Part shown: piece by piece, positions 7,227 to 55,226 of the stretch
Numbering within the stretch: the first letter of the stretch is position 1
Layout: the number at the start of each line of letters is the position of its first letter
DNA from: Nesterenkonia aurantiaca
GTDB lineage: Bacteria > Actinomycetota > Actinomycetes > Actinomycetales > Micrococcaceae
Length of the DNA stretch: 64,000 nucleotides
NCBI RefSeq assembly: GCF_004364585.1
Contig: NZ_SOAN01000002.1
Location: 189,000 to 252,999 of the forward strand
Direction: 5' to 3'
Notes under the pieces: generated by a model
The model's database searches: none
The model's input: only the letters and a program-made list of their open reading frames with translations
What the model was told of the DNA's origin: nothing
Position numbers and translations under genes: made by a program

Positions 7227-7952
7227 GTGACTGACCAGGAGCCGGACCGCCTCAGCTCCGCGACCCCAGATGGCCCGGACTCCGCTGCGGCGGCATCGAG
7301 TGGCCGCCGAGCTGCGGTGACCAAAGCCGCGCTGCTGGTGCTGGCGCTGGCTGGGTTCACCGCAGCTGCTTTGCTGCTCCCCCTTCCTGCGCTGGAGGAG
7401 ATCCGATCCCTCGTCGCCGGGGCAGGCTGGTGGGGCCCATTCGGATTCGGGATCGGCTACGCCGCACTGACCCTGGCGCCGGTGCCGAAGAACGTGCTCT
7501 CCATCGGTGCCGGAGTGCTCTTCGGCTTCGGCCCAGGACTGCTGATCGTCTACGTCGCCGCGATGGCCGGAGCCTCGGCCGCCTTCTGGCTGGGCCGGGG
7601 ACTGGGTCGCGAGGCGGTCGAACGGTTCACCGGCACCCGGGTCGCAAAGGTGGAAGCGGTCCTGGACCGCCACGGGTTCGCCGCCGTCGTGGGCGTCCGG
7701 CTGGTCCCGGTGCTGCCCTTCACCGCGATCAACTACTCGGCCGGCCTGACCTCGCTGGGCTGGTGGCCCTACGTGATGGGCACCCTGATCGGGATCATCC
7801 CGGGCACCGCCAGCTACCTGGCGCTGGGCGCCTACGGCTTCGAGTCGGGCGCTCGGGCCGAACTGGCGGCCGCCGCACTCGGAGTCCTGACCCTGGCCGG
7901 GATCGCCTACGCGGTGCGAGTCCGCAGAAGGAGCACCACGACAGATGTTTGA
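7227..7952 (+). CDS. TVP38/TMEM64 family (DedA-like) membrane protein
   Basis: Integral membrane protein of about 241 residues. The SNARE-associated/VTT core includes GPFGFGIGYAALTLAPVPKNVLSIGAG and the characteristic second re-entrant stretch RLVPVLPFTAINYSAGLTSLG. Relatives act as phospholipid scramblases or small-solute transporters. The GTG start is poorly supported because GAGGA abuts it; a GTG at 7317 would remove about 30 hydrophilic residues. Its 3' end overlaps the next gene by eight bases, so the two are probably co-translated and both act in membrane lipid handling. Confidence 0.85.
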   Translation: MTDQEPDRLSSATPDGPDSAAAASSGRRAAVTKAALLVLALAGFTAAALLLPLPALEEIRSLVAGAGWWGPFGFGIGYAALTLAPVPKNVLSIGAGVLFGFGPGLLIVYVAAMAGASAAFWLGRGLGREAVERFTGTRVAKVEAVLDRHGFAAVVGVRLVPVLPFTAINYSAGLTSLGWWPYVMGTLIGIIPGTASYLALGAYGFESGARAELAAAALGVLTLAGIAYAVRVRRRSTTTDV

Positions 7953-40635: not shown

Positions 40636-41310
40636 CTAACCTTCGGAGTCTCCGACGCTCATCGTGGCGCCATAGACGGCGACCTGGGTGCGGCGGTCCA
40701 TCCCGAGCTTCGCCAGCAGCCCTGAGACGTAGTTCTTCACGGTCTTCTCCTTCAGGCCCAGGCGGTGTCCGATCTGCCGGTTGGTGAGTCCTTCGGTGAT
40801 GAGCGCCAGAACCTGGTTCTCCCGCAGGGTCAGGTCAACCCACGGGACGCGCGTGGACTTCTCCTGAGCCGCCGCCTGTGCCTGCTTGGTCAGGGATGAG
40901 TGCACCCGTTGGGCCAGGTCGCGGGTCACCAGGTTCTCACCCTGAGAGACTCGAAGGATCGACTCGATCAGATGCCGGCCTCGGATGTTCTTGAGCACAT
41001 AGCCCGAGGCGCCGGCGACCACAGCGGCGATGCTTGCCGCGTCGTCGTCGTAGGCGGTGAGGATCAGGCAGTGGATCTCCGGGTGCGCCGAGCGGATCCG
41101 GCGGCACAGCTCTATGCCGTTGCCGTCCGGCAGATGGACATCCAGCACGGCGACATCGGGCAGTGTGGCTTTGATTCGGGCGAGGGTCCCGCGTGCGGTG
41201 GCAGATTCACCTACGACTTCCAGGCCTGGTTCGGCGTCGATGAGTCCGGCGATGCCGCTGCGAACGATCTCGTGGTCATCGACGAGGAAGACACGCGTCG
41301 ATCTGGTCAT
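40636..41310 (-). CDS. NarL/LuxR-family response regulator, DosR/DevR-like (copy 1)
   Basis: A 224-residue regulator. Receiver: VFLVDDHEIVRSGIAGLIDAEPGLEVVGE, phospho-Asp in VAVLDVHLPDGNGIELC, Lys in GYVLKNIRGRHL. LuxR HTH: LTLRENQVLALITEGLTNRQIG then HRLGLKEKTVKNYVSGLLAKLGM, the DosR type with its long linker. The ATG overlaps the stop of kinase 1. About three quarters of positions match copy 2 at 43204 by eye. Controls hypoxia/dormancy responses in relatives; here inferred. Confidence 0.88.
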   Translation of the reverse strand: MTRSTRVFLVDDHEIVRSGIAGLIDAEPGLEVVGESATARGTLARIKATLPDVAVLDVHLPDGNGIELCRRIRSAHPEIHCLILTAYDDDAASIAAVVAGASGYVLKNIRGRHLIESILRVSQGENLVTRDLAQRVHSSLTKQAQAAAQEKSTRVPWVDLTLRENQVLALITEGLTNRQIGHRLGLKEKTVKNYVSGLLAKLGMDRRTQVAVYGATMSVGDSEG

Positions 41311-43007
41311 GTGAGTCTCGGAGAGTTGACGGGGGCGTGCCAGCGGCTCCGGGTTCCTCCGGAGCTGCGGGGACATAGTTGGAAATCCCCTCCGTGGGCA
41401 TGCGCCCTGGCCCTGAGGTTCTTGGTGCCGCTGTTGAGCACCGAGTTCGGGGAGATCCCTACCCCGTCATCGTCGATGGTGATCGTGATGTCGGTCTCTG
41501 TGGCGCTGACCTCCACCCAGACGGTCTCGGCGTGGGCATGGCGTGCGACATTGCTCAGCGACTCACGAAGGACAGCGACGGCGTCATCGGCGAGGGAACC
41601 TTCCAGGATCAGGTCGACGGGTCCGGTGAACGTCAGACGCGGAACCGTTGACAGAGTGGGTGAGAGTTCGGAGACGACCTCGAGGAGCTGGTGTCTGACA
41701 TTCATCTGCGGTGCTTGAGTCTGGAGAGCGAAGATCGCGGTGCGGATATCGGCGATCGCCGCGTCGATCTGCGCCACGTGGGGCTCCAGCCGGGCTGCCT
41801 GCTGCGGATGGGCTGATGCCAGCGCTTGCAGTCCCATCCCGGCTCCGAAGAGTCTCTGGATGACATTGTCGTGGAGATCTCGCGCGATGCGGGACCTCTC
41901 TTCGACCATTTCCAGGTGCTCTCGGTCTACCCGTGCCCACGCCAGGGCAACAGCGAGACCAGCCTGGGTGGCGAACTCTGTGAGCAGCTCGAGATCATCT
42001 GCGCTGAAGCGCGGCTCTGTCGCGGAGCGGGTGGCGCATAGGGCGGCCACCCGGTCGCCGGCGACGACGAGAGGTACCGCGATCATCGACGCGCTGGGGA
42101 TATCCTCGGCGAACGGAACTGGTTCGTCTGCCTCCAGGGGAGTGATTCCGGGCTCTCCATTCATGGCTCGTGAGAGGACACAGTCCATCCAGGGAACTGA
42201 GGCGCCCTCAAGCCGTGCCGCGCGTGCCCCCCGAGCGGTATCGACGAAGAGCGCCTGGCCCACCGCTTCGGAGACCACGACACTGACCAGCTGCGCCCCG
42301 GTGAGTGAAACCACGCTCTCCGCGAGGACCCCGAACACCTCGTCGCCTTCCGCATTCAACAGCCTCGCCGCGACGTCCCCCAGCGCGGCACTGAGCTCCT
42401 GTGCCCGGCGGGTTCGTTCGTACAGGCGTGCATTGTTGATCGCGGTCGCTGCGGTGGCCGCCAGCGCCTGAACCAGAGCCTCATCATTGGCGGTGAACGA
42501 CTTCTCGGAGGAATTGGTGAGATAGAGGGCACCATAGGTGCCGCCGCGGATCATGATGGGGACCCCGAGGAACGCCTGCATCTCCGGGTGAGCAAGCGGC
42601 AGGCCGACGGAGCGAGGATCATCAGACAGGTTCCTGATCCTGATGGGCTCGCTCCCGGTCAGGACGGCGCCTAGAACGCCGAGTCCCCGTGGCGGGGCAC
42701 CCATCTGCTCGACGAGCTCTGGGGACATCCCCACGTGGATGAACCGCTCTAATGCCCCTTCGTCATCTACCACGCCGAGGGCAGCGAATCTGGCGTCCAC
42801 GAGGGTTCGGGCCGACTCTGCGAGGTGGCGGAGGACCTGGTCGAGGTCTAGGTCCTCTGTCACAAGCTGACTCGCCTCGAGCAGGCTCAACAGACCGTGA
42901 TGGTCCGTCAGGAAGCGGTCACTCCGGACCGCACTGGCGTGGTTCGTCTCGCCCGCGTCGTCAACATGGCGATCTGGGAGCTCCGGAACGGAAGGGTGAT
43001 CGAGCAT
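41307..43007 (-). CDS. GAF-domain sensor histidine kinase, DosS/DevS-like (copy 1)
   Basis: Cytoplasmic kinase of 566 residues with GAF-A, GAF-B, HisKA_3 and ATPase domains. GAF-A ends GLPLAHPEMQAFLGVPIMIRGGTYGALYLTN. GAF-B has SASMIAVPLVVAGDRVAALC. The phospho-His is in RIARDLHDNVIQRLFGAGMGLQ and the ATP site in LRESLSNVARHAHAETV and DDDGVGI. In DosS/DosT a haem-ligating His lies near the HHPPM motif; here one of the two His residues is Ala (AHPEM). The start is uncertain because no ribosome-binding site is clear. Confidence 0.85.
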   Translation of the reverse strand: MLDHPSVPELPDRHVDDAGETNHASAVRSDRFLTDHHGLLSLLEASQLVTEDLDLDQVLRHLAESARTLVDARFAALGVVDDEGALERFIHVGMSPELVEQMGAPPRGLGVLGAVLTGSEPIRIRNLSDDPRSVGLPLAHPEMQAFLGVPIMIRGGTYGALYLTNSSEKSFTANDEALVQALAATAATAINNARLYERTRRAQELSAALGDVAARLLNAEGDEVFGVLAESVVSLTGAQLVSVVVSEAVGQALFVDTARGARAARLEGASVPWMDCVLSRAMNGEPGITPLEADEPVPFAEDIPSASMIAVPLVVAGDRVAALCATRSATEPRFSADDLELLTEFATQAGLAVALAWARVDREHLEMVEERSRIARDLHDNVIQRLFGAGMGLQALASAHPQQAARLEPHVAQIDAAIADIRTAIFALQTQAPQMNVRHQLLEVVSELSPTLSTVPRLTFTGPVDLILEGSLADDAVAVLRESLSNVARHAHAETVWVEVSATETDITITIDDDGVGISPNSVLNSGTKNLRARAHAHGGDFQLCPRSSGGTRSRWHAPVNSPRLT

Positions 43008-43203
43008 GGAGACGGACTCATTACTGCCATCAGGGCCTATCCGGTGCGAAGGCGCCCTGAGGGCGATTTTGCGATTCACGACTTTGCAGGACGGTGCCCC
43101 TCGACTACAACACTGAACTGCGGCTGAAGGGAAGCGTCCGGGGCCGACTGGGGCCCAGGCGCTCAACGGGGCCGCCGTTTTGGAGCTGGGGTGACTCAGC
43201 TCT

Positions 43204-43869
43204 TCAACGTGTGGGGTCTTCGGTGCTCAACCTGGCGCCATAGACGGCAACCTGGGTGCGGCATGTCATGCCCAGCTTCGCCAGCAGGCCTGAGACGTAG
43301 TTCTTCACGGTCTTTTCCCTCAGGTTCAGCCGCTGCCCGATCTGCCGGTTGGTGAGGCCTTCCGTGATCAGTGCCAGGACCTGGGTCTCACGCAGGGTCA
43401 GCCTCACCTGTGGGTCCCGACTCGACTTCTCCTGCGCTGCCGCTTGTGTCTGCCTGGTCAGGGAGGAACGAACCCGGTTGGACAGATCACGGGTGACCAG
43501 CGTCTGCCCTTGGGAGACCTGGAGTATCGACTCGACCAGATGTCTGCCCCGCACATTCTTCAGCACATAGCCCGAGGCGCCGGCGACGACGGCGGCGATG
43601 CTGGCCGCGTCATCGTCGTAGGCGGTGAGGATCAGACAGGGGATCTCCGGGTGCGCCGAGCGGATGTGCCGGCATAGCTCTATGCCGTTGCCGTCCGGCA
43701 GATGGACATCCAGCACCGCGACGTCGGGCCGTGTGGCCGTGATCCGCTCGAGGGCACCCCGTGCGGTGGCCGATTCTCCGACGACCTCCAGACCTGGTTC
43801 GGCGTTGATGAGCTGGGTGATGCCGCGACGCACGATCTCGTGGTCATCGACGAGGAAGACCCGGGTCAT
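43204..43869 (-). CDS. NarL/LuxR-family response regulator, DosR/DevR-like (copy 2)
   Basis: A 221-residue paralogue of the 40636 regulator. Phospho-Asp in VAVLDVHLPDGNGIELCRHIR, Lys in GYVLKNVRGRHLVESIL, HTH LTLRETQVLALITEGLTNRQIG then QRLNLREKTVKNYVSGLLAKLGM. The recognition helix differs only slightly from copy 1, so both may bind the same box. Its ATG overlaps the stop of kinase 2 (ATGA). Confidence 0.88.
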   Translation of the reverse strand: MTRVFLVDDHEIVRRGITQLINAEPGLEVVGESATARGALERITATRPDVAVLDVHLPDGNGIELCRHIRSAHPEIPCLILTAYDDDAASIAAVVAGASGYVLKNVRGRHLVESILQVSQGQTLVTRDLSNRVRSSLTRQTQAAAQEKSSRDPQVRLTLRETQVLALITEGLTNRQIGQRLNLREKTVKNYVSGLLAKLGMTCRTQVAVYGARLSTEDPTR

Positions 43870-45575
43870 GTGGAGCTCGGGGCGTTCACCGGGGCGTACC
43901 AGTGGGCTCTGGTGCCTCCGGAGCTGCGCGAGGTCAGCTGGAATTCGCCGCCATGAGCGCTGGCCCTGGCGTGCAGGTTCTTGGTCCCGCTGCGGCGGGA
44001 CAAGGAGGAGGAGAGCCCCAGGCCGTCGTCCTCGACGGTGATGGAGACCTGGGCTTCTGCGGCGTTGATCTCTACCGAGACGGTCTCAGCCTGGGCGTGG
44101 CGTGCGACATTGGTCAGTGACTCCCGAAGCACGGCGACGGCGTCATCGGCGAGGGTGCCTTCCAGGATCAGGTCGACGGGACCGATGAAGACCAGACGGG
44201 GAATCGTGGAAAGCCTGGGGGAGAGTTCGGACACCACCTCCAGGAGGCGATGTCTGGCATTCTGTGTAGGTGCCTGAGTCTGCAGCGCGAAGATCGCGGT
44301 GCGGATGTCAGCGATCGCGGCGTCGATCTGAGTGACGTGTGTTTCGAGGGTGGCTGCCTGGGCAGGCCGCGATGATGCCAGGGCCTGCAGCCCCAGTCCC
44401 GTGCCGAAGAGCCGCTGGATGACGTTGTCGTGAAGGTCTCGGGCGATGCGGGCGCGTTCTTCGACCATATCCAGTCGCTGCCGATCCACTCGGGACCAGG
44501 CAAGTGCCACAGCGAGACCGGCCTGGGTGGCGAACTCTGTGAGCAGTTCAAGGTGACCTTCGGTGAAGGGGGATTCCTCTGCGAAGCGGGTGGCGCACAG
44601 GGCGGCGACCCGGTCTCCGGAGATGACCAGAGGCACTGCCATGATGGAGGCGCTTGGGACATCACCGATGAAGGGAGCCGGCGCGTCCCCGTCCCTCGGC
44701 GTGATGCCGGGCTGTCCCTTCATTGCGCGGGAGACGACGGAGTCGGTCCACGGCATGGTGGTGCCTTCGATCGAGAATGCGCCCTCTCCTCGAGCCGTCT
44801 CGACACGGAGCTTGCTGCCGACGGCTTCGGAGACCACGACGCTGACCAGTTGTGCCCCGGTCAGTGACGCAACGCTCTGGGCAAGCACGCCGAAGGCGTC
44901 GGTATCGGGTGATGCCAGCAGCGCGGAGCTGACCTCACCCAGTGCGGCGCTGAGTTGCTGTGCCCGTTGCGCCTCGCCGTAGAGTCGTGCGTTGTTGATC
45001 GCAGTAGCCGCTGCCGTCGCGAGCTCCTTGACCAGTTCCTCGTCCTCTTGGGTGAAGGGACCGCCGGATCGGTTCGTGAGATAGAGATTCCCGAAGGTCA
45101 CTTCGCGGATCTTGATGGGCACGCCCAGGAAGGTGTCCATCGGTGGGTGATGCTCGGGAAAGCCGACTGCTCGAGGGTCTTTGTTGAGGTCCGTGAGTCT
45201 GATCGGGCATGAGGTGTCGGTGACGGCGCCAAGGACCCCGTGGCCCTCGGGAAGATGACCGATCTTCGCCACCAGCTCTTTTGGCATTCCGACGTGAATG
45301 AACTGCTCCAGCTGACCTTCCGGGTCAATGACGCCCAGTGCGCCGTATTGCGCATCCACCAGGGTGAGTGCGGATTCGGCTATCTGACGCAGCACATTCG
45401 AGAGGTCCAGTTCGCCGGTGACCAGGAGGCTTGCCTCCCAGAGGCCGCGCAGGCCCGGCTGCGCACCCATCATCCGGTGATCTTGCGCATCGACCTGCGG
45501 ATTCGAGTTTCGGCGTTCGGTTTCCGGCCGGGGTGCTGAATCTGAGCGTGGAATGAACACGATTAAACCCATCAT
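43866..45575 (-). CDS. GAF-domain sensor histidine kinase, DosS/DevS-like (copy 2)
   Basis: A 569-residue kinase with the layout of copy 1. GAF-A ends GFPEHHPPMDTFLGVPIKIREVTFGNLYLTN, keeping both His of the HHPPM motif known near the haem ligand of mycobacterial DosS. Phospho-His in RIARDLHDNVIQRLFGTGLGLQ; ATPase motifs LRESLTNVARHAQAETV and VEDDGLGLS. The first ATG overlaps a TATAAT sequence, so the real start may be GTG at 45560 (MFIPRSDSAP). First gene of a four-gene tandem kinase-regulator array. Confidence 0.87.
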   Translation of the reverse strand: MMGLIVFIPRSDSAPRPETERRNSNPQVDAQDHRMMGAQPGLRGLWEASLLVTGELDLSNVLRQIAESALTLVDAQYGALGVIDPEGQLEQFIHVGMPKELVAKIGHLPEGHGVLGAVTDTSCPIRLTDLNKDPRAVGFPEHHPPMDTFLGVPIKIREVTFGNLYLTNRSGGPFTQEDEELVKELATAAATAINNARLYGEAQRAQQLSAALGEVSSALLASPDTDAFGVLAQSVASLTGAQLVSVVVSEAVGSKLRVETARGEGAFSIEGTTMPWTDSVVSRAMKGQPGITPRDGDAPAPFIGDVPSASIMAVPLVISGDRVAALCATRFAEESPFTEGHLELLTEFATQAGLAVALAWSRVDRQRLDMVEERARIARDLHDNVIQRLFGTGLGLQALASSRPAQAATLETHVTQIDAAIADIRTAIFALQTQAPTQNARHRLLEVVSELSPRLSTIPRLVFIGPVDLILEGTLADDAVAVLRESLTNVARHAQAETVSVEINAAEAQVSITVEDDGLGLSSSLSRRSGTKNLHARASAHGGEFQLTSRSSGGTRAHWYAPVNAPSST

Positions 45576-45579
45576 TATA
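45574..45579 (-). promoter_or_regulatory. Possible -10 box (TATAAT) of the kinase/regulator operon
   Basis: A consensus TATAAT on the minus strand overlaps the first ATG of kinase 2. If used, transcription would start near 45567 and only the GTG at 45560 would be available as start, giving a nearly leaderless message. The -35 is not clear. Confidence 0.45.
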
Positions 45580-45835
45580 CCAAATAGCCATACAGTGTAT
45601 TTTGATATTTAAAGAAGAATTATGAAATTATGATGCGGGCGGTTCCAGGGATCGCCCCGGAGTCCAGGTGTCTGGTTCGAGATTTCAACCGGGGCTGCCA
45701 TCTCGATCGTGGTCCCATTATGTCTGGAGGACCCTCCGGAGAGTCTTCGAAATCATGCGTTGTATTGATCGAAAAGACTTCACTAGGGTCCTAAGACTCT
45801 ACTTCGAATGGTGCGCAAGCGCATACGGTCCGCTT
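45580..45835. other. AT-rich divergent promoter region
   Basis: About 255 bases between kinase 2 and the second tandem USP. It is unusually AT-rich around 45590-45640 compared with the rest of the window. It contains the DosR-like site at 45786 and an imperfect GAC-CTCCGGAG-GTC palindrome near 45733-45748. No gene is seen. Confidence 0.5.
45786..45799. promoter_or_regulatory. Degenerate DosR-box-like site upstream of the second tandem USP
   Basis: GGGTCCTAAGACTC matches the core seen at the other sites in the island at 11 of 14 positions and lies 36 bases before the USP start, a position expected for activation. Confidence 0.35.
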
Positions 45836-46924
45836 ATGACTCCTCCACGTGACGCAAGTGAGCCCCGCACGCCGGCTGTTCTGGTCGGGATCGATGGTTC
45901 GGAAGACAGCGAGCGAGCCTTTCGAGCAGGGCTCAGGATGGCTGAGCGCCGTGGATTGCCGCTGAGGTTGGTGGGCACCTTCGCTCGCCCGGTGGTGAGC
46001 GACGCCTACGCCATCCCGCTGATGGGTGAGTTCGTCGAGACGGCGCTCAAAGAGACCCAGAAGATGCTCGACGGCTACGCGGCACAGGCAGAACAGTCGG
46101 GGATCGAGGTCACCACCCACGCGGTCGAAGGCGACCCGGGCGCGACACTGGTCGATGAGAGTCGCTTCGCCGAGCTGGCAGTCGTGGGAAAGCGTGGACG
46201 GAACAGATTCGCAGGTCGAGTCTTGGGCAGCGTCTCGGCCAAGCTGTCCGCGCACGGAGGCTGCCCGACCCTGGTCATTCCGGCCAAGTGGGAGAGCGAG
46301 TCCGCCGAGGAGCTGCTTGCCCCATCGCAGGAGCATCCGCTCGGGGATGGGATGGCGGCCGAGCCCCTGACTCAGATGGAGGAGTCCGCCCCGAGAGAGC
46401 ATTCCCGTCGTGAGTTCGCCAACGTGGCGCAGGAGCTCAACTTCGACTCCGAGGTCGTCGTCGGCGTGGACAGCTCCTCAGGCCAGGTCGTGGACCTGGC
46501 GGCGCAGACCGCGCAGCTGCTGGAGCGGCCTCTGACCCTGGTGTCGGCGGCTCCATTGAATGCCAAGGGTCATTGGTACCCCAACACGGTCGAACACAAT
46601 CTCGAGCTCCCGAATCTGCGTCGGCCCTATATCGAGAACCTCCAGAAGCTGGTCCTTGAAGTTGGGGAGAAGTTCCCGGCGCTCAGCGTGCGGTGGCAGT
46701 TCTTCGATGGCTCACCAGCAGGCGTGCTCTCCGAGGCGTCCAGGACCGCCGAGCTCGTGGTGATCGGCACCCGAGGTCATGGCGGGTTCGCGGGCCTGCT
46801 GCTGGGCTCGGTGAGTCAGGCAGTCCTGAACCGTTCGGCCTGTCCCGTCCTGGTCGTTCCGACCTCAAAGGTTGAAGGTTCCCGGGCGAAGCTGCGAGTC
46901 GGGACCACCCGGTCAGATGCATGA
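45836..46924 (+). CDS. Tandem universal stress protein (second copy)
   Basis: A 362-residue protein with two Usp domains. Domain 1: VLVGIDGSEDSERAFRAGLRMAE, ATP motif GKRGRNRFAGRVLGSVSAKL. A 50-residue acidic linker follows. Domain 2: VVVGVDSSSGQVVDLAAQTAQL, ATP motif GTRGHGGFAGLLLGSVSQAV. No ribosome-binding site is seen before the ATG, which suggests a leaderless message or a different start. It is divergent from the DosS/DosR-like operon and likely one of its targets. Confidence 0.87.
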   Translation: MTPPRDASEPRTPAVLVGIDGSEDSERAFRAGLRMAERRGLPLRLVGTFARPVVSDAYAIPLMGEFVETALKETQKMLDGYAAQAEQSGIEVTTHAVEGDPGATLVDESRFAELAVVGKRGRNRFAGRVLGSVSAKLSAHGGCPTLVIPAKWESESAEELLAPSQEHPLGDGMAAEPLTQMEESAPREHSRREFANVAQELNFDSEVVVGVDSSSGQVVDLAAQTAQLLERPLTLVSAAPLNAKGHWYPNTVEHNLELPNLRRPYIENLQKLVLEVGEKFPALSVRWQFFDGSPAGVLSEASRTAELVVIGTRGHGGFAGLLLGSVSQAVLNRSACPVLVVPTSKVEGSRAKLRVGTTRSDA

Positions 46925-46942
46925 GCGGATCGCCCCACACGG

Positions 46943-46969
46943 TGGAGCCCTCCTTGGCGATGGGCTCCA
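46943..46969 (+). terminator. Hairpin after the second tandem USP
   Basis: TGGAGCCC and GGGCTCCA pair over eight bases around an 11-base loop, 19 bases after the USP stop and before the PPOX gene. It may separate the two transcripts. Confidence 0.5.
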
Positions 46970-47032
46970 GAGCAGAAGCCGCCCGCTCCGCGGTCCTGGA
47001 GATTTGGAAGCTGCAGAAAGAGAGATCGGCTG

Positions 47033-47491
47033 ATGCTGTTTGAACACGCAGAGAATGAGCCAGTGCTCATCCTCGATGCTGACCAGATCTGGAATCTTCT
47101 GGAGACCGCCAGTCACGGGAGACTCGTCCTCGTGGTGGGATGGAGGCCAGACATCTTCCCGATCAACTATGCGGTGGCCCCCGACCGCACCCTCATCTTC
47201 CGAACTGCGCCGGGAACCAAGCTGGCCGAGCTTGCGATCAACGAAAAGGTGCTGTTCGAAGCGGATCAGATCTCCTCAGACGACGCTTGGTCCGTGACGG
47301 TCCGCGGAGAAGCGCATTGGCTGCAGAACTCGGCGAGTATCGAACAGGCAGAGGCGTTGGGTCTGCGACCGTGGGTTCCCACCGTGAAGGACCACTACGT
47401 GAGCATCACCCCCACGGAGGTCAGCGGCCGACACTTCCAGTTCGGCCCGCATCCGGAGCGCGAGCTGGGAGAGGGCTCCGAGGGCGGCTGA
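47033..47491 (+). CDS. Pyridoxamine 5'-phosphate oxidase (PPOX)-family flavin-binding protein
   Basis: A 152-residue split-barrel protein. The family core is seen in LLETASHGRLVLVVGWRPDIFPINYAV, IFRTAPGTKLAEL and WSVTVRGEAHWLQ. Members bind FMN, F420 or haem and reduce or sense small molecules. Similar proteins (Rv3129/Rv3131-region type) belong to the mycobacterial DosR regulon, so its place beside a USP in this island is coherent. GAGAG lies upstream of the ATG. The cofactor is not decidable from sequence. Confidence 0.83.
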   Translation: MLFEHAENEPVLILDADQIWNLLETASHGRLVLVVGWRPDIFPINYAVAPDRTLIFRTAPGTKLAELAINEKVLFEADQISSDDAWSVTVRGEAHWLQNSASIEQAEALGLRPWVPTVKDHYVSITPTEVSGRHFQFGPHPERELGEGSEGG

Positions 47492-47630
47492 TCCACCATC
47501 GCTGGACCCCGGGTATCCGGATCTCCGATCGCGGCTGACGCTTTTCGGATGTGGGTGCATACGGGGTGAGCGGGCTCGCCTGGCGCTCAGCTGGGCGGGT
47601 GCCCCGCTGGGTGGGCATCATCCAGCTGAT

Positions 47631-48791
47631 TCAGTACCGCACGGGGTCAGGTCGATGGCTGCTCGCCAGAGGTGGGCGTTCGGTGTCGGCGATCGCCCCT
47701 CCCGAGTGATTGATGACACCGGTGAGACCTGAGAGCTGCGCCATCTTGCGTTGCCGGGTGGCTCCGGTTCCCTGGGCCAGGAACAGCTCCAGCCCGGAGC
47801 GGACCAGTTCTTCGTCGCCGAACTCGACCAGGTAGGGCCATGCCTGATTGAACGCCTGCCACACCACCACGTCGGCGAGGACCGGAGCCCCGGTGAACGG
47901 GTCGAGCAACCGACTGCTGAGGCCGAATTTCGCGGCCTGCCAATGAGCGACGTCCAGGAGCTCAGGTTCAGGTTGAACCCGCGAGGGTTGGTCGATCGCG
48001 GCGCAGACCAGCGCTCGGATCAACGTTGCAAGAACCACGGCGTCGAGCACCTGGAGCTGAACGTCGCAGGCTCGAATCTCGATCGTCGGGTGAAGCTGCG
48101 AGAGCCGGGCCAACCAGCTGATGCCACCGCGGTCGGCCACCACATCGGAGTTCACCAGAGCATCGATCCGATTCTCATAGTCGGTGAAATCACGGAAGGC
48201 AGGTGGCACCCCGTTGACCATCCAGCGCCGGTAATGGATGGATCGCCAGCTGGCGAAGCCAGAGTCGAGACCTCGCCAGAAGGGCGAGTTGGCGCCCAGC
48301 GCGGTCAGCAGTGGAAGCCACCGGCGAATCCCGTTCAGTGCTCGGATTCCGGTCTCGGGATCTGGGACGCTGACATGGACGTGCATCCCGTTGATGTATT
48401 GATCAGCAGCAATCCCTGGTGCCAGATCTGTCATCTGCCGGTACCGGGGGTCGTTGCTGACCGCGGCGCCGAACTCCGCAATGGTGGGAGCGGTCCCGAT
48501 GGGCGCGGCAATCAGTCCGAACCCTTCCGCCACGGATGCGAGGTTCTGTCTAAATCTCAGCAGAGCCGTGGTGGCAGCTGGCGCGTCCTGCAGCACTGCA
48601 GATGCGTGCTCGACCTGACAGGAGAGCCATTCCTGAGAGGTTGCGCCCTGGCCCGGCCTGATGTCCTGCAACGCGTTGGATTGGTGCACGGTCGGGGTGG
48701 CGGGCAGCATCAGCTCCCGGTCGATGAGCAAGAACTCTTCCTCGATCCCCATCGACACCGCGGGGGAGAGACGAGCGAAACTCTCAGACAT
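47631..48791 (-). CDS. GCS2-family carboxylate-amine ligase (YbdK/EgtA-like)
   Basis: A 386-residue ATP-dependent ligase of the glutamate-cysteine ligase 2 family. The N-terminus SMGIEEEFLLIDRELM holds the metal/ATP Glu residues; QYINGMHVHVSVPD and HPTIEIRACDVQ are typical for the family. It joins glutamate to an amine such as cysteine, but actinobacteria make mycothiol and the true product of YbdK-type enzymes is often unclear. The stop-proximal sequence SGLTGVINHSGG is clear. No ribosome-binding site marks the start. Confidence 0.87.
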   Translation of the reverse strand: MSESFARLSPAVSMGIEEEFLLIDRELMLPATPTVHQSNALQDIRPGQGATSQEWLSCQVEHASAVLQDAPAATTALLRFRQNLASVAEGFGLIAAPIGTAPTIAEFGAAVSNDPRYRQMTDLAPGIAADQYINGMHVHVSVPDPETGIRALNGIRRWLPLLTALGANSPFWRGLDSGFASWRSIHYRRWMVNGVPPAFRDFTDYENRIDALVNSDVVADRGGISWLARLSQLHPTIEIRACDVQLQVLDAVVLATLIRALVCAAIDQPSRVQPEPELLDVAHWQAAKFGLSSRLLDPFTGAPVLADVVVWQAFNQAWPYLVEFGDEELVRSGLELFLAQGTGATRQRKMAQLSGLTGVINHSGGAIADTERPPLASSHRPDPVRY

Positions 48792-48945
48792 CACTCGGGA
48801 CCGCTGGTTCGGGGGATCGGGATGACTCTTTATGAGGGCAGGCGAGTGTCGGGCCTCTCGAGATCCTCCCCAGGGCGGGGCATGCGAGGAGGTGCAAGGG
48901 TGGAGATGTCACCGTGATGTCCTATCCATGTGATGTCGGAGTGGT

Positions 48946-49170
48946 TCAGCGCCGGCGGATCTTGAGGCGATTGTCGACGTGGGTCACGGCCGGGGAAGCC
49001 GCCACCGCGAGCCCGGCCTGTTTCCTCTCGTCTCGAGACTTCACGAATCCTCGGAGGACGGCGGTGCTTTGGACCCGGGTGACGAAGACTCGGCTTGCAG
49101 GGGGTGAAAGTGCGCGGCTCAACGGACTCCCAGGTCCGACGCTGAGGATGGCGGGGACCGATGGGGGCAC
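48946..49170 (-). pseudogene. BON-domain protein fragment
   Basis: A 74-residue frame whose second half reads VQSTAVLRGFVKSRDERKQAGLAVAASPAVTHVDNRLKIRRR, matching the end of a BON (phospholipid-binding, OsmY-type) domain, where V-x-V-x-N-x-L-x-I closes the fold. The first strands (GxVxLxG) are not convincing and there is no signal peptide or partner domain (CBS, LysM). It is either a very short BON protein or a decayed copy. Stress-island BON proteins often accompany USPs. Confidence 0.45.
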
Positions 49171-49348
49171 CGCGTCGCAGAAATCTGAACCAGAGCCCCC
49201 GGCGCTTCGAGCTCGACGGGCGAACGTATCTCATGGTCGGTGACGGGCGTCGCGCCCGGCCCGGTAGTCCTCATAGTTGTAGCCCTTCAATCATTGCCCG
49301 CGTCTTGTCTTGTGGCTCCACCGTCGTATTGTTTGCGCGATCTGTGCA

Positions 49349-49362
49349 GGGCCATTGGTCCC
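49349..49362. promoter_or_regulatory. DosR-box-like site upstream of the second HAD gene
   Basis: GGGCCATTGGTCCC shares 12 of 14 positions with the 38043 site and both contain TTGGTCCC. It is 182 bases before the HAD start and 178 bases from the BON fragment on the other side. Confidence 0.4.
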
Positions 49363-49385
49363 GCACGCTCGACCCACACCCCCAT

Positions 49386-49409
49386 CCGCACCCGCACCTG
49401 CACCCGCAC
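49386..49409. repeat. Hexamer tandem repeat (CCGCAC)4
   Basis: Four head-to-tail copies of CCGCAC, the third with one substitution, in the HAD upstream region. Short enough to be slippage-prone. Confidence 0.6.
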
Positions 49410-49544
49410 CGTGCACTGCAGGGTCCATTCGCTCTCTGCTTCCTGGCCCGGAGGCGAAGTCCCGGGCGTGTGCCCTGCACGCTGCGCTGGGGATAGCATG
49501 TGGACACCAGACGGGTCTGACACCCCATGGAAAAGGAGTCCCGC

Positions 49545-50210
49545 ATGACTGGTCGTGTTGAAGCGGTTGTTTTCGATGTTCTGGAGACTCTCCTGGACCT
49601 GGACCCTCTCGGTGCCAGGCTTGAGGAGGTCGGGCAGCCTGCCTCGGTGCTGGGTCCGTTCTTCATGCGGTTCCAGCGGGACGCTATGGCGTTGACGCTT
49701 GCCGGTGATGTCGCAGACTTCACCCGGACGGCTCGTCAGTCGCTGCGCACCGAGACTAAACAGGCGCTGTCGGATACGGATATCGACTACGTCATGGGAG
49801 GCTTCGCCAGCGTTCAAGCCTTCCCCGATGCACTCCCCGCGCTGCGCAAGCTCTCCGAGGCCGGGATCACGGTCGGCTGTCTGACTGTCGGTGATCCGGA
49901 GAACACCCGTTCGTTCTTGGCCGGAGCGGGACTCGAGTCCTATGTGGACGAGGTGGTGACCTCAGATTCAGTGGGAGTGTGGAAGCCTGCACCAGAGGTC
50001 TACCACCACAGCGCGAAGGCGCTGAATTGCGAGATCGATCGCATGGCGCTGGTGGCGGTGCACGCATGGGACTGCCACGGCGCCAAGAAGGCCGGGGCCC
50101 TTGCAGGCTGGTGCTCGCGGCTCGAGGGTGAGCCCGGTGAGGTCTTTCTCCCGGCCGACGTCCGCGGCGAAGACCTGATCGACGTCGTCGACGGGCTGCT
50201 GGCCCTCTAG
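49545..50210 (+). CDS. HAD-superfamily haloacid dehalogenase type II-like protein
   Basis: A 221-residue HAD hydrolase. Nucleophile in VVFDVLETLLDLDPL, motif III Lys in VGVWKPAPEVYHHSAKAL, motif IV ALVAVHAWDCHGAKKAG. Motif II is altered: the usual LSNGS is replaced by LTVGDPENT, so substrate recognition probably differs from the 6446 paralogue. AAAGGAG lies six bases before the ATG. Confidence 0.83.
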   Translation: MTGRVEAVVFDVLETLLDLDPLGARLEEVGQPASVLGPFFMRFQRDAMALTLAGDVADFTRTARQSLRTETKQALSDTDIDYVMGGFASVQAFPDALPALRKLSEAGITVGCLTVGDPENTRSFLAGAGLESYVDEVVTSDSVGVWKPAPEVYHHSAKALNCEIDRMALVAVHAWDCHGAKKAGALAGWCSRLEGEPGEVFLPADVRGEDLIDVVDGLLAL

Positions 50211-50295
50211 CTCCTGAGGTGAGCGGGTCGCTACGCCCCGCGTGCGATCGAGTCTCGCCCCATGGCGAGTCAGGAGCCGCAGCGAACAGCGCGCC

Positions 50296-50790
50296 TCAGG
50301 GGATATCTGCCGGGAGGGAGCGCCCGGGGGCGCGGATCGCGGACTGTCGTTCCCATAATGCGCCGGTGACCCGCCACAGGACATCGGTCGCCGTCGTCAC
50401 ATCCTCCTGTGGGAGTCCGTGGGTGGCTCGTGCCACCATAGCGATGAAGTCGGCGTGGATCGCAGAGATGGTCCGGTGTCCCTCGCTGGTCAGCTGCAGT
50501 CGCACGCTGCGCCGGTCCTCCGGCTGGGCGACGCGTTGAAGAAGCCCCGCGTCGACGAGGCGTCTTGAGATGCCGGTGACCGCTCCGCTGCTCAAAGCGA
50601 GATGGCCAGCCAGCTCCTTGGGGGTCAGGTCTCCCGACTCGGCAACGCGGAAGAGGCCTCGGAGGTCCGTGGGGGAGAGGGAGTGCTCCTCTGCGAGGCG
50701 CTGCCGCTCTTCCTCCAAGCCCCTCAGGAGGTGGATGGCAGCGTTGGGAAAGCCTGTCAGCGCATGCCTGTCTTGCTGGTCCTGGGCCAC
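50296..50790 (-). CDS. MarR family transcriptional regulator (divergent from the rhodopsin)
   Basis: A 164-residue winged-helix regulator: LSPTDLRGLFRVAESGDLTPKELAGHLALSSGAVTGISRRLVDAGLL then RVAQPEDRRSVRLQLTSEG. GTG start with GGAGGAG just upstream. The only shared intergenic region with the rhodopsin gene contains a perfect 13-bp palindrome, so the protein most likely controls both genes. The ligand is unknown. Confidence 0.87.
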   Translation of the reverse strand: MAQDQQDRHALTGFPNAAIHLLRGLEEERQRLAEEHSLSPTDLRGLFRVAESGDLTPKELAGHLALSSGAVTGISRRLVDAGLLQRVAQPEDRRSVRLQLTSEGHRTISAIHADFIAMVARATHGLPQEDVTTATDVLWRVTGALWERQSAIRAPGRSLPADIP

Positions 50791-50893
50791 CTGCTCCTCC
50801 TATCGAGACTATGACATGTTCGCTACGCGTTCGGACATCGTGTTTCGCCTGATCCTACGACAGCAGGATGGCCGAGAGTCGATATATAGTTTA

Positions 50894-50906
50894 GTATCTA
50901 AGATAC
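50894..50906. promoter_or_regulatory. Palindromic MarR operator candidate between MarR and rhodopsin genes
   Basis: GTATCTAAGATAC is a perfect palindrome of six-base arms around one A. TATAGT (50885-50890) just before it is a plausible rhodopsin -10 box, placing the palindrome over the start of transcription, a repressor position. Confidence 0.65.
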
Positions 50907-50964
50907 CCACTGAAGTATCGCCGCGGCCTGCAAAGTGGAGCGCGGCCTGTCCGATGGAGGACCC

Positions 50965-51783
50965 GTGATACCCGAATCCCTGACACAAGGACAGTTCGAC
51001 ACCGTCTACAACTTCCTGTCCCTGGTCATCGCCTCGCAGCTCTTCACTGCCCTGTTCCTGCTCATCTGCTTGCCCCGGATCCTGCCCCGCTACCGGCAGG
51101 CCATCACCGTGGCCATCGTGGTCTGCGGCATCGCGGCATACCACTACCTCCGCATCTTCGACTCCTTCAAGGATGCCTTCGTCACTGACGCCGTCGGTGG
51201 CGACGGCATCTACACCCAGGCGGCAGGTGCCTCGTTCAACGAGGGCTACCGGTACGTGGACTGGCTCTTGACGGTGCCACTGCTGCTGGTCGAGCTGATC
51301 GCGGTGCTCGCATTGGCCCGAGCCTTGCAGTCCAAGTTGCTGTGGCGGCTGGTTCCTGCCGCGGTCCTGATGATCGCTCTCGGGTATCCGGGTGAAATCA
51401 GCGACGACAACATGGTGCGGGGGATCTTCTTCGGGCTCTCGATGATCCCGTTCCTGTATATCCTCTACGTGCTGTTCGTCCAGCTGACCGCCTCGCTCGA
51501 CCTGCAACCGGCGGGTGTCCGTCGTTCGCTGAGCAATCTGCGCTGGCTTCTGCTGGGCAGCTGGGCGGTCTACCCCATCGCCTACCTGCTGCCGATGCTC
51601 AATGTCTCTGGGGCGGATGCCTGGGTTGGCATGCAGATCGGGTACTCGGTGGCTGATATCACTGCCAAGGCTGTATATGCGCTGATCATCTACCGGGTGG
51701 CCCGGATCAAGTCATTCGCGGAAGACCCCGCCTTCGCGGAGCGTGAGATGTCCCACGGCGCCTTCGCGAGGGAAACCGTCTGA
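50965..51783 (+). CDS. Microbial rhodopsin, xanthorhodopsin-type light-driven proton pump
   Basis: A 272-residue seven-helix retinal protein. Helix C has YRYVDWLLTVPLLLVE: Asp99 (acceptor), Thr103 and Glu110 (donor) give the proton-pump DTE motif, with Leu107 at the spectral-tuning position that gives green absorption in proteorhodopsin. His60 in AAYHYLRIF matches the His that partners the acceptor. The retinal lysine is Lys235 in YSVADITAKAVYAL, with Asp231. Helix F has WAVYPIAYLLP. Phe156 stands where Gloeobacter rhodopsin has Gly178, so the carotenoid-antenna opening is probably blocked. GTG at 50965 with GGAGG upstream was preferred over GTG at 50935. Confidence 0.95.
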   Translation: MIPESLTQGQFDTVYNFLSLVIASQLFTALFLLICLPRILPRYRQAITVAIVVCGIAAYHYLRIFDSFKDAFVTDAVGGDGIYTQAAGASFNEGYRYVDWLLTVPLLLVELIAVLALARALQSKLLWRLVPAAVLMIALGYPGEISDDNMVRGIFFGLSMIPFLYILYVLFVQLTASLDLQPAGVRRSLSNLRWLLLGSWAVYPIAYLLPMLNVSGADAWVGMQIGYSVADITAKAVYALIIYRVARIKSFAEDPAFAEREMSHGAFARETV

Positions 51784-51918
51784 CGCCGGCATGATTGACC
51801 GCGTGGTGGCCCTCCAGCAAGTCGGGCAGCAAGGCACGACATGCTGGGGGCGACTGCCTCTCGGGGGTTGCCCGCAGGTCAAGATGCCACCTCTTCATGC
51901 GGCAACCCCGAATGGCAT

Positions 51919-53583
51919 TCAGCGGCTTGGGGGGAGATGTAGGACCCGGTCGAGCCTTTGCAGGGTCTCGCTTCGGTGTGAGGCCACGAGTACTGTGCCT
52001 TCATAATCCGCGATGACGTTAGAAATGATGCGTTCGGTCTCCGAGTCCAAGCTGGCAGTCACCTCGTCAATGAGAAGGATCTTTGGTCTCCGGATGAGGG
52101 CGCGGGCAAGGCAGAGCCGGGCTTGTTGTCCCCCTGAGAGCCGCAGGCCGTTTTGACCGATATGGTCCTCGAGGGTGACCCACTCCAAGGCCTTCACCCT
52201 GTCCAGTACAGCCAGGAGTTCGGCGTCGCGTATCGGATCGGCACCTCGCAACAGGTTCTCCCGCACCGTTCCGTGGAACAGGGTGGCATCCTGGTCGACA
52301 ACGGCGATGGCTTTTCGAAGGCAGGGATCTTCGATGTTTCTCAGAGAGATCTCTGCGCCGGATCTGGGGACGAGCTCGATGCTGCCATGGGTGGGGTCCC
52401 AGAGACGAGCAGCCAAGGTGATGACGGTGCTCTTCCCCGACCCGGAGGGACCGGCGATGCCGACATGTTCCCCGGCCGTGACTTCTGCAGACCAGGAGGA
52501 GAGCACGTCGGTCTGGTCGTCATAGCTGAAGGACACGTGCTTGAAGCGCAGTCCCAATGGCCCTGACGGGAGACTCTTGGACCCCGGGGAGCGGTCAACG
52601 GCTGGGGGCCGCTGGATGCCGTGTGCGACTCGGTCGGCGCTTGCTGTGAGCGGATGCAGCTGAGTCACCGTGGTGGTCGCCTCAGTGACGGCAGTGACGC
52701 CGGCCAACGACAGAGCGATCAAGGCCGGAAGAGCGGCTGCGGTGAATCGAGGTTCGTTCGGATCGCTGAAGAGGCCCGCGGCCGAGGCGCTGGTCGCGAT
52801 GACTCCCATCATGACGGCAGTCACGGTGAGATCGCGGATCGCTGTGATGAGTTCAGCGAGAAGTGCGCGTCTGCGGCTGATAGCCGTGGCTCGGTCGGTG
52901 GTGGCGAGAGCTTCAGCGGTGATGGGGCGGATGAGTCCGAAACTGAGGACTTCTCGCAACGCTCCGAGCGCGTCGACGAGCTCGGTGGAGAGCTGGTTGC
53001 GGAAGAGCTGTTCCTTAGCTCCGAGATCGCGCATGCTGCGTCTGCCGAGCAGGACGCTTGCCGCGATCGTGATCGCTCCTATGGTCATCACCAGTCCGGC
53101 TTCGGGCAGAAGGAGCGTTGCGGTGAAAAGGGTGGTGAGGAAGACGGTGAGGGAGGTCGCGATTCGAGCGAGGGTGTGGGCGTAGAAGAATTCCAGCTTC
53201 TCGATGTCGTCCATGACCACGCTCGCGGTCTCTCCGGAGTGTTCTCGGCGTCGTGCGGGAACACTGTGCGAGTAGGAGTCGAAGAGCGCCATGCGCAGAC
53301 GCGCCAGAACCCGGTAAGCCAGGGCATGGGAGATGTCCATTTCTCTCCACGTCAGGATCGTCCTGGCCAAGACCAGTCCGATGAGTGTCACCCACATGGT
53401 TGGACCGGGAGGGCTCGCCTCGACGATGGCGTGGCCTACGGCCCAGGCGGTGAGCACTACGATCGCGGTCAGCGTGAGCGCACTGGCGGTGCCGATGAGG
53501 TAGCTGGTGATCATGCCCCGTCTTTCAGCGCGCAGCACGGGGAGCAGCGAGAAGAAAGCGTTGGGTGAGGAAGGGTGTATCAC
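51919..53583 (-). CDS. Half-ABC transporter (CydC/exporter-like), ATPase fused to membrane domain
   Basis: A 554-residue type IV ABC half-transporter: six helices (LIGTASALTLTAIVVLTAWAVGH onward) then an ATPase with Walker A GPSGSGKST, signature LSGGQQARLCLARAL and Walker B ILLIDEVTASLD, H-loop ASHR. The GTG start overlaps the stop of the partner gene (GTGA). The pair could be CydDC-like (thiol/haem export) or like IrtAB/YbtPQ, which are exporter-fold siderophore importers; proximity to a FecCD-type system keeps both open. Confidence 0.85.
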   Translation of the reverse strand: MIHPSSPNAFFSLLPVLRAERRGMITSYLIGTASALTLTAIVVLTAWAVGHAIVEASPPGPTMWVTLIGLVLARTILTWREMDISHALAYRVLARLRMALFDSYSHSVPARRREHSGETASVVMDDIEKLEFFYAHTLARIATSLTVFLTTLFTATLLLPEAGLVMTIGAITIAASVLLGRRSMRDLGAKEQLFRNQLSTELVDALGALREVLSFGLIRPITAEALATTDRATAISRRRALLAELITAIRDLTVTAVMMGVIATSASAAGLFSDPNEPRFTAAALPALIALSLAGVTAVTEATTTVTQLHPLTASADRVAHGIQRPPAVDRSPGSKSLPSGPLGLRFKHVSFSYDDQTDVLSSWSAEVTAGEHVGIAGPSGSGKSTVITLAARLWDPTHGSIELVPRSGAEISLRNIEDPCLRKAIAVVDQDATLFHGTVRENLLRGADPIRDAELLAVLDRVKALEWVTLEDHIGQNGLRLSGGQQARLCLARALIRRPKILLIDEVTASLDSETERIISNVIADYEGTVLVASHRSETLQRLDRVLHLPPSR

Positions 53584-55226
53584 GGGACGATGCGATCCAC
53601 ATGGTCATTGTCCAAGTGCAGGACGGATTCGACGTCGAGAAGACTTTCGGGACGGTGGCTGATCATCAGGACGATCCGGTCGGCTGCGACCCGGTGCAGG
53701 GTGTGGATCACTTCAGCGGCCCGGACAGCATCCAGGGCACTGGTGGGCTCGTCCACCAGCAGAACGGGTCGTCGGGCAAGCAGCGCCCTGGCGAGTGCAA
53801 GCCTCTGACGCTGTCCGCCGGAGAGGCTCAGCCCTGCTTCGGTGACCTCCGTGTCGAAACCCCGCGAGAACGAGAGGATCTCGTCGAGGATTCCGGATGC
53901 CGCGCAGGCGGTTTCGAGTTCGGTGTCGGAACGCGCACCAGTGACAGTGAGATTCTGGCGGATGGTGCCGGTGAAGAGGACCGGACGTTGAGACACCACG
54001 GCGAGGTCGTTGCTGTGCAACGTTTGGCCATCGAGCAGGATCTCACCGCTCTCAGGGGTCAGGAACCCCAAGAGGAGATCAAACAATGTCGACTTGCCGG
54101 CCCCGGATGTGCCCACCACAGCGCTGAGGGTTCCCCGGCTGACTGTATGTGTGATGTCTTCGAGCACCGGGAGGTCTGTGCCTGGGTAGCGGTAGGTCAA
54201 CGCCTGGATGCGGAGTTCTCGGGCTGTAGCTGGAGATTCTGACCCGATCGGAGTCTCCGGCCGGGCATGTTCTTCGGATCCGTTGAAGGCGCCCAGCCGA
54301 ATGAGTTCGGGCACGGCTGTCAGGCCCATGAAGCCGGCGTGCCAGTGCCGGGAGAGATCGCGGATCGGACGAAACGCCTCAGAAGCCAGGAGGAGGACCA
54401 GATACGTCTCCAGTGCTGGAGGCTGTCCGGTGGTTGCGTGGAGGGCCGCTGTGGTTCCGGCCGCGACTACTCCGGCCTGAATGGCGAAGTCCGTCACGCC
54501 GGTTTCTGCCAGAGATACTCTCATCACCCGTTCTGTCGCGGAACGGAGCGCTTCTGATCGGTCGTGGAGACGATGCCGAGTCTCTGGCACGGCACCAAGG
54601 ACGCGAAGGGTGGCCATGCCGCGCAGGGATTCCAGGAGGTCTGCGCTCAGATCCTCGTAGGAATCCCAATGGTTGAGTCCCCGCCGGGCTGCGACCTTCT
54701 TCCACAGCAATGGTCCCGTGAGCGCCAGTACAACCGCGAGTCCTACCCATACCCCAGCCCACGGGTTCAGGATTGCCACGGTGATCACGACCAGTGGGCA
54801 GGCGAGGACCACTTGGGCGGTGGCCGGGATGTACTTCGACACGTAGGCGTCGGTGCCATCGATCCCATCTCCGAGGCTGGCTCTGATGGCACCGTCTCGG
54901 GCAGTGGTGTCATGGAGGCGCGGGGCCACGAGGGCAGCGGGGATCGCTTGTTCTCGGAGGCGACGCCGGACGAGTCCTCCGAGTCTGGCCGCGGAAGAGG
55001 CTTGCACAAGAGACAGCAGCAGGCGGAGCACAGCGATTCCGAGAATCATGCCGAGTGCGAGCCACACCTCGTCGGTCTGCCCGCTGATCACACTTGCGAG
55101 GGTCCAGGCGATGGCGAGGGCTTGAGCCGCGTGTGTCGCGAACACCAGGACGAGCCAGATGATGCTCCAGGCAAGAGGAGCGGGGAACTTCGCGGCCTCG
55201 CGCCAGAGTTCAGGGACGATCATCAT
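53580..55226 (-). CDS. Half-ABC transporter (CydD/exporter-like), partner
   Basis: A 548-residue half-transporter with an N-terminal membrane domain (LAWSIIWLVLVFATHAAQALAIAW, VLACPLVVITVAILNPWAG) and an ATPase: Walker A GTSGAGKST, signature LSLSGGQRQRLALARALL, Walker B VLLVDEPTSALD, H-loop ISHRPESLL. It starts ATG-ATG with no clear ribosome-binding site, so it may be leaderless. Forms a heterodimer with the downstream half. Divergent from the metal-chelate importer, with a shared 25-bp palindrome in the gap. Confidence 0.86.
   Translation of the reverse strand: MMIVPELWREAAKFPAPLAWSIIWLVLVFATHAAQALAIAWTLASVISGQTDEVWLALGMILGIAVLRLLLSLVQASSAARLGGLVRRRLREQAIPAALVAPRLHDTTARDGAIRASLGDGIDGTDAYVSKYIPATAQVVLACPLVVITVAILNPWAGVWVGLAVVLALTGPLLWKKVAARRGLNHWDSYEDLSADLLESLRGMATLRVLGAVPETRHRLHDRSEALRSATERVMRVSLAETGVTDFAIQAGVVAAGTTAALHATTGQPPALETYLVLLLASEAFRPIRDLSRHWHAGFMGLTAVPELIRLGAFNGSEEHARPETPIGSESPATARELRIQALTYRYPGTDLPVLEDITHTVSRGTLSAVVGTSGAGKSTLFDLLLGFLTPESGEILLDGQTLHSNDLAVVSQRPVLFTGTIRQNLTVTGARSDTELETACAASGILDEILSFSRGFDTEVTEAGLSLSGGQRQRLALARALLARRPVLLVDEPTSALDAVRAAEVIHTLHRVAADRIVLMISHRPESLLDVESVLHLDNDHVDRIVP

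Follow-up and report, generated by a model that had tools for sequence, protein, structure and literature searches.

The stretch of Nesterenkonia aurantiaca DNA analysed here (64,000 nucleotides, hereafter referred to as the window) carries a gene for a rhodopsin of the proton-pumping type and, divergently oriented from it, a gene for a regulator of the MarR family. A promoter region shared by these two genes had been proposed in a preliminary description of the locus, and it corresponds to the 174 bp lying between them. The features of the locus are the following:

50296-50790, minus strand: gene of the MarR-family regulator, divergent from the rhodopsin gene (Pfam, fold, neighbour in 34/81 loci)
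50791-50964, no strand: gap of 174 bp with both promoters (sequence)
50851-50863, minus strand: conserved GATCCTACGACAG, containing TAGGAT (minus strand) as a candidate -10 element of marR (alignment, inference)
50885-50890, plus strand: TATAGT, candidate -10 element of the rhodopsin promoter, kept in three Nesterenkonia (inference)
50890-50902, no strand: operator-like site TTTAGTATCTAAG, ranked first in the window by models trained without Nesterenkonia (start at 50891 at width 15); with the 17-bp model, the site spans 50890-50906
50894-50906, no strand: palindrome of the preliminary description, GTATCTAAGATAC, 6+1+6, overlapping the operator-like site (sequence)
50909-50914, no strand: ACTGAA, possible outer half-site facing TTTAGT at 50890-50895 (alignment, inference)
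50956-50960, plus strand: GGAGG, Shine-Dalgarno-like, likely ribosome binding site of the rhodopsin gene (sequence)
50965-51783, plus strand: rhodopsin gene of the proton-pumping type, starting at GTG (Pfam Bac_rhodopsin, E 5.8e-38; invariant D/T/E/K)

The rhodopsin reading frame is already open from a GTG at 50935 (the long frame), and the start region around the GTG at 50965 is kept in relatives. Numbered from the latter codon, D99, T103, L107, E110 and K235 are each invariant in 81/81 related rhodopsins, so that the full DTE motif, the retinal Lys235 and the Leu107 previously announced for this protein are all present at their expected positions. A leucine at the place of L107 has a green-tuning role. 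The DTE motif, the retinal lysine and the leucine at the green-tuning place are common to the window rhodopsin and the xanthorhodopsin-like proton pumps, from which it differs by a phenylalanine in place of the antenna-site glycine and by its dedicated MarR partner. The solved structures best matching it are 9hfk and the Gloeobacter rhodopsin 6nwd, psXR and Kin4B8 being also among the nearest. Gly153 of Kin4B8 is described as the glycine opening the carotenoid-antenna fenestration (PMC13093654). The equivalent place (51430-51432 in the window, residue 166 of the long frame), in a register fixed by a conserved Ser three residues further on, is occupied by Gly in 77 of the 81 rhodopsins and by Phe in the other four (the window, L005, L006 and L007). 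The lineage of Nesterenkonia and Ornithinimicrobium has probably lost the carotenoid-antenna site. CryoRhodopsins are defined by an arginine at the place of bacteriorhodopsin T46 (PMC12227055), and the match of CryoR2 to the window rhodopsin is far weaker than the best structure match (4.4e-18 vs 6.8e-74). Beyond the rhodopsin gene, two ABC transporter genes at 51919-55226 point convergently at it and may be CydDC-like, judged by their arrangement; no terminator-like site was found in 51700-52000.

The regulator contains a winged-helix domain, as it matches the Pfam MarR family with an E-value of 5.5e-15 (55.4 bits for a cut-off of 24.6). Its structure model (pLDDT 91) has a MarR fold, the 50 matches listed being mostly MarR-type structures with Z of 14-16. 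The protein is devoid of cysteine. FabT and Rv0880, two members of the MarR family, are among its best family, profile and fold matches, but it lies far under their curated cut-offs (41 of 200 bits and 29 of 220 bits, respectively), and no cut-off of a named family was reached in an NCBIfam scan of the protein.

The genomic context of related rhodopsins was compared over 81 loci, consisting of the window and the best 80 of 258 loci found with the rhodopsin as query, the closest of these 80 being from Nesterenkonia. A gene of the same MarR family lies divergently beside the rhodopsin gene in 34 of the 81, which makes it the commonest neighbour, and the pairing is not confined to the window. The outer neighbours of the pair differ between loci; those of the window MarR are HAD-type hydrolase and ABC transporter genes. 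The MarR-linked rhodopsins are distributed over at least 11 genera and three actinobacterial families (Nesterenkonia, Ornithinimicrobium, Arthrobacter, Pseudarthrobacter, Cryobacterium, Subtercola, Frigoribacterium, Glaciihabitans, Lacisediminihabitans, Microbacterium and Rathayibacter), genera being taken from record titles, of which some (e.g. Planococcus, Acidobacteria) may be mislabelled. An alignment that took in 28 of the 34 rhodopsin-linked MarRs revealed R44, F47 and H112 to be common to all 28.

The pair also appears to have been inherited as a unit. On a quick rhodopsin tree with midpoint root, the MarR-linked loci are confined to one side of a single branch (SH-aLRT 93), where they represent 34 of 39 members, compared with 0 of 42 on the other side. 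The five MarR-less members of the former side are L008, L011, L017, L035 and L057; in L035, from Subtercola vilae, a Fur-family gene is found at the divergent position (7344-7859). Among 30 Nesterenkonia genomes, the rhodopsin occurs in three and a close MarR in exactly these three (E ≤9.8e-86, the next best being at 1.4e-9), some weak MarR match being present in 29 of the 30. In the family (395 genomes), a rhodopsin match was obtained in 11 genomes and a close MarR in five (E <1e-30, the next best being at 2.1e-16), all five among the 11; one of the six rhodopsin-bearing genomes without close MarR, G299, has just a 59-residue rhodopsin match. Pairwise distances of the MarRs and of the rhodopsins are correlated over 33 loci (Mantel r 0.65), none of 2000 permutations reaching as high a value. 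Since Nesterenkonia groups with Ornithinimicrobium, a member of another family, in the MarR tree and the rhodopsin tree alike, and since the distances are correlated, a joint transfer of the two genes would be the simplest reading.

The surroundings of the pair are rearranged even between close relatives. The same stress-protein/GCS2 block adjoins it in the window (41307-51850) and in L006 (5555-15048), with the pair in opposite orientation, and in L005 the flanks correspond, in inverted orientation, to DNA located some 10-12 kb further downstream in the window. Either a local inversion or repeated insertion could account for these arrangements. A search for plasmid carriage retrieved just two distant Polymorphobacter records.

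According to the preliminary description, rhodopsins of bacteria mostly come under light or carotenoid regulators. In seven of the 81 loci (L028, L031, L040, L041, L042, L044 and L083), the gene lying divergently beside the rhodopsin gene belongs to a TetR cluster, so that the MarR clade is not alone in having a local one-component regulator. TetR_N was confirmed by Pfam in the one gene of this cluster that was scanned. These rhodopsins, from Mycolicibacterium, Mycobacterium and Rhodococcus, resemble the MarR-linked ones in having a divergent one-component regulator beside them, and differ by the regulator family, by another palindrome (TGAAC-N5-GTTCA, near -67 in 3/7 loci) and by a BCD-cluster gene downstream of the rhodopsin in 5/7. 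The genomic context thus points to the TetR-cluster gene as a second, separate local regulator of rhodopsins.

Within the 174-bp gap, candidate promoter elements could be proposed by alignment for both genes. The GATCCTACGACAG stretch is kept in the three Nesterenkonia and has one change in L007. A simple scan of the gap for a consensus sigma-70 promoter found none. The perfect 13-bp palindrome reported earlier is exact in the window, and no other site within one mismatch of it was found in the 2.95-Mb genome. Taken alone, it is weak evidence, as the palindrome pattern at up to two mismatches occurs once in the window for 0.43 expected by shuffling. Moreover, its perfect symmetry is lost in the two nearest species, which have GTATCTAATATAC (L006, 5/6 arm pairs kept) and GTATGTCAAATAT (L005, 4/6) at the same place against 6/6 in the window, and only 2/6 arm pairs are kept in L007 (Ornithinimicrobium). 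The nearby ACTGAA likewise reads ACTAAA in the two nearest species. When the perfect palindromes of the rhodopsin upstream regions were listed, none was shared, and a degenerate motif was searched for instead.

This search for a palindromic motif in the MarR-linked gaps resulted in yTTASTNASTAAr. The motif set comprised 33 of the 34 gaps (L079, with the same protein as L078, was dropped), training was performed on 30 of them, leaving out the near-copies L018, L056 and L019, and the control set was formed by 46 of the 47 upstream regions of MarR-less rhodopsins, L050 having too little upstream DNA. Widths from 11 to 22 were tried, and 13, 15, 17 and 21 were taken to held-out tests in which each genus group was left out, with a threshold of p 0.05 against local shuffles. 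At these four widths, 24, 24, 23 and 27 of the 33 gaps were significant, compared with 1, 2, 0 and 3 of the 46 controls, for which about 2 are expected by chance; an earlier control run at width 13 gave 0/46. The nine non-significant gaps at width 13 are L010, L015, L019, L026, L045, L046, L048, L049 and L062. Width 13 is the sole one at which all three Nesterenkonia reach p 0.05: the sister species L005 and L006 miss it at 15 and 17, L005 also at 21, and the window gap at width 15 had a p of 0.02 in the first run and of 0.058 in a rerun.

For models trained without Nesterenkonia, the gap site comes out on top in the entire window at each of the four widths, with a clear separation from the next site at width 13 (9.6 vs 6.4) and just 6.7 vs 6.5 at width 15. 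With a model trained on these same gaps, sites scoring at least 8 number 27 in the gaps (22/32 loci) versus four elsewhere in 469 kb. Five Cryobacterium gaps (L012, L020, L023, L024 and L038) contain two sites about 16 bp apart. The likelihood of the palindromic motif ranged from 123 to 214 and that of a mirror-symmetric control motif from 99 to 180, for 34 to 56 with shuffles. As the mirror-symmetric control is also well above the shuffles, part of the motif signal is explained by AT-rich repetition, and likelihood alone was not relied on.

The conserved cross-genus site starts at 50890, 4 bp to the left of the palindrome GTATCTAAGATAC, and overlaps it by 9 bp. It is possible, though doubtful, that the palindrome at 50894-50906, in the register of its own symmetry, constitutes the operator, the shared TTTAG on the left being then part of the promoter or a spacer. 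That register is the more symmetric one in the three Nesterenkonia (6, 5 and 4 of 6 arm pairs, for 4, 4 and 3 in the motif register), but in L007 the relation is reversed, with 2/6 against 5/6 arm pairs for the motif register, and the models trained without Nesterenkonia pick a start at 50890 (widths 13, 17 and 21) or 50891 (width 15) rather than that of the palindrome. In either register, the predicted operator can be placed at 50890-50906.

We consider it likely that the two genes constitute a cassette in which the rhodopsin is controlled by its own MarR repressor acting on the predicted operator, probably autoregulated and released by a ligand. Comparison of the loci reveals that the two genes are paired, that their gaps share an operator-like motif and that these features are inherited jointly, whereas repression, autoregulation and ligand release are suggested by the general behaviour of the MarR family. 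According to this model, the rhodopsin gene and marR would be transcribed apart from one short gap, where a MarR dimer would most likely bind 50890-50906 (core TTTAGTATCTAAG), beside or over the rhodopsin promoter. Bound MarR would repress the opsin gene and probably marR too, and binding of a small molecule to MarR would cause its release from DNA. MarR could alternatively act as an activator. The dedicated MarR control put forward in the preliminary description thus receives good support from the conserved neighbourhood, the co-presence of the two genes, their correlated distances and the shared motif, but not from the exact palindrome, which is not conserved. That MarR controls other genes and that the pair is merely carried together appears very unlikely: paired genes can indeed travel together, but this pair is kept in at least 11 genera while its outer neighbours change, and the motif is largely confined to the MarR-rhodopsin gaps. 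A direct contact, by which the rhodopsin in light would bind MarR and modify how the latter binds DNA, so that the pump would itself act as sensor for its synthesis, is highly improbable. It has a parallel in the Gloeobacter rhodopsin, a near solved relative of the window rhodopsin, for which binding to the regulator GvTcR and a light-dependent change in the activity of this regulator are reported (PMC11217422). This system is likewise a functional pairing of a proton-pumping rhodopsin with a helix-turn-helix regulator, but GvTcR belongs to another family (ArsR-like) and acts through contact between proteins, and the accessible text of this report mentions neither a divergent MarR nor a shared operator (PMC11217422).

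As for the signal that would release MarR, the closest precedent is CrtR of Corynebacterium glutamicum and its actinobacterial orthologues, described as MarR-type repressors divergent from crt operons, released by GGPP, with light-induced carotenoid genes (PMC5401885, PMC7432914, PMC6739363). CrtR shares with the rhodopsin-linked MarR the divergent gene, the single short shared gap and a small regulon (PMC5401885, PMC7432914, PMC6739363). This precedent of a divergent actinobacterial MarR released by GGPP (PMC5401885, PMC7432914, PMC6739363) raises the idea that the rhodopsin-linked MarR likewise has GGPP, or else another isoprenoid pyrophosphate, as its inducer, which would tie the opsin to carotenoid flux or, via flux, to light. 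We regard it as unlikely, since CrtR controls crt operons and is described as requiring TTAA in its site, unlike the motif of the rhodopsin gaps, and since the rhodopsin-linked MarRs branch apart from the one crtE-linked MarR examined. The latter, from Cryobacterium adonitolivorans (L118), was the one homologous MarR retrieved when six crt regions were searched by tblastn with the 34 rhodopsin-linked MarRs, and served as a stand-in for C. glutamicum CrtR. It lies across a 96/100 branch from the rhodopsin-linked MarRs, in a tree which carries a long-branch warning, was built with seven MarRs from family genomes as outgroups (E between 2e-16 and 9e-13) and places two very long-branched other MarRs among the rhodopsin-linked ones. 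By eye, R44, F47 and H112 are absent from the L118 protein. An operator in crt clusters was also sought: no site scoring at least 8 was present in the six crt regions scanned, the best reaching 7.6. The window marR is not beside crtE or a crt operon, the crt cluster of this genome being on another contig.

A special form of the preferred explanation, a MarR-repressed cassette released by a ligand, is that MarR monitors the availability of chromophore: it would be released by retinal or an apocarotenoid, and opsin would be made only when it can be filled. Such sensing is plausible and made attractive by the lack of both known retinal-forming enzymes in 21 cassette genomes, that of the window among them: neither BCD/Blh nor an RPE65 homologue was found in the window genome, the same BCD/Blh search being positive in 17/42 genomes, and BCD is absent in 21 of the 32 MarR-linked genomes (window included), with RPE65 in 0 of these 21. 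Some blh-less rhodopsin carriers have been described that presumably depend on exogenous retinal (PMC12422013). Phytoene synthase was detected in 56 of 59 rhodopsin genomes, and the three in which it was not detectable (G397, G399 and G416, with loci L007, L009 and L033) are all MarR-linked. The link is unspecific, however, BCD being present in 11/32 MarR-linked genomes and missing in 4/10 MarR-less ones; its absence is therefore not confined to the cassette, and as a mark of MarR-linked genomes it is unsupported (21/32 vs 4/10). Also against this form, the window genome has carotenoid genes, phytoene synthase being grouped with a CrtI-like oxidase, a UbiA prenyltransferase and two small membrane proteins in what looks like a C50 carotenoid cluster, and a blh-less actinobacterium is reported to produce retinal by an unknown route (PMC7734400). 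On balance, a transferable cassette whose MarR senses retinal or an apocarotenoid and switches the opsin on only with its chromophore, as an opportunistic pump in bacteria unable to make retinal, seems rather unlikely.

A literature search, carried out mostly by titles and abstracts and covering subscription journals thinly, gave no paper, among those listed, that connects a MarR with the gene of a microbial rhodopsin. PMC6669644 was considered as a possible prior report of the pairing and set aside, its MarR being described as belonging to a crt cluster. Polar Nesterenkonia are reported to be enriched in rhodopsin, with no regulator of it in the accessible text (PMC8875376), and in two freshwater actinobacteria rhodopsin expression rises in the dark, with no MarR in the part of the report available (PMC8591293).

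The circumstances under which bacteria make rhodopsin are poorly known, and the existence of rhodopsin carriers devoid of blh remains puzzling. A regulator that is conserved and specific to the opsin, together with its predicted operator, represents a direct handle on rhodopsin control, and the inducer of MarR would reveal the signal by which these actinobacteria invest in light harvesting. If this inducer were retinal, the persistence of the pump in retinal auxotrophs, which are unable to fill it by themselves, would be explained, and a genetic switch responsive to retinal would be at hand.
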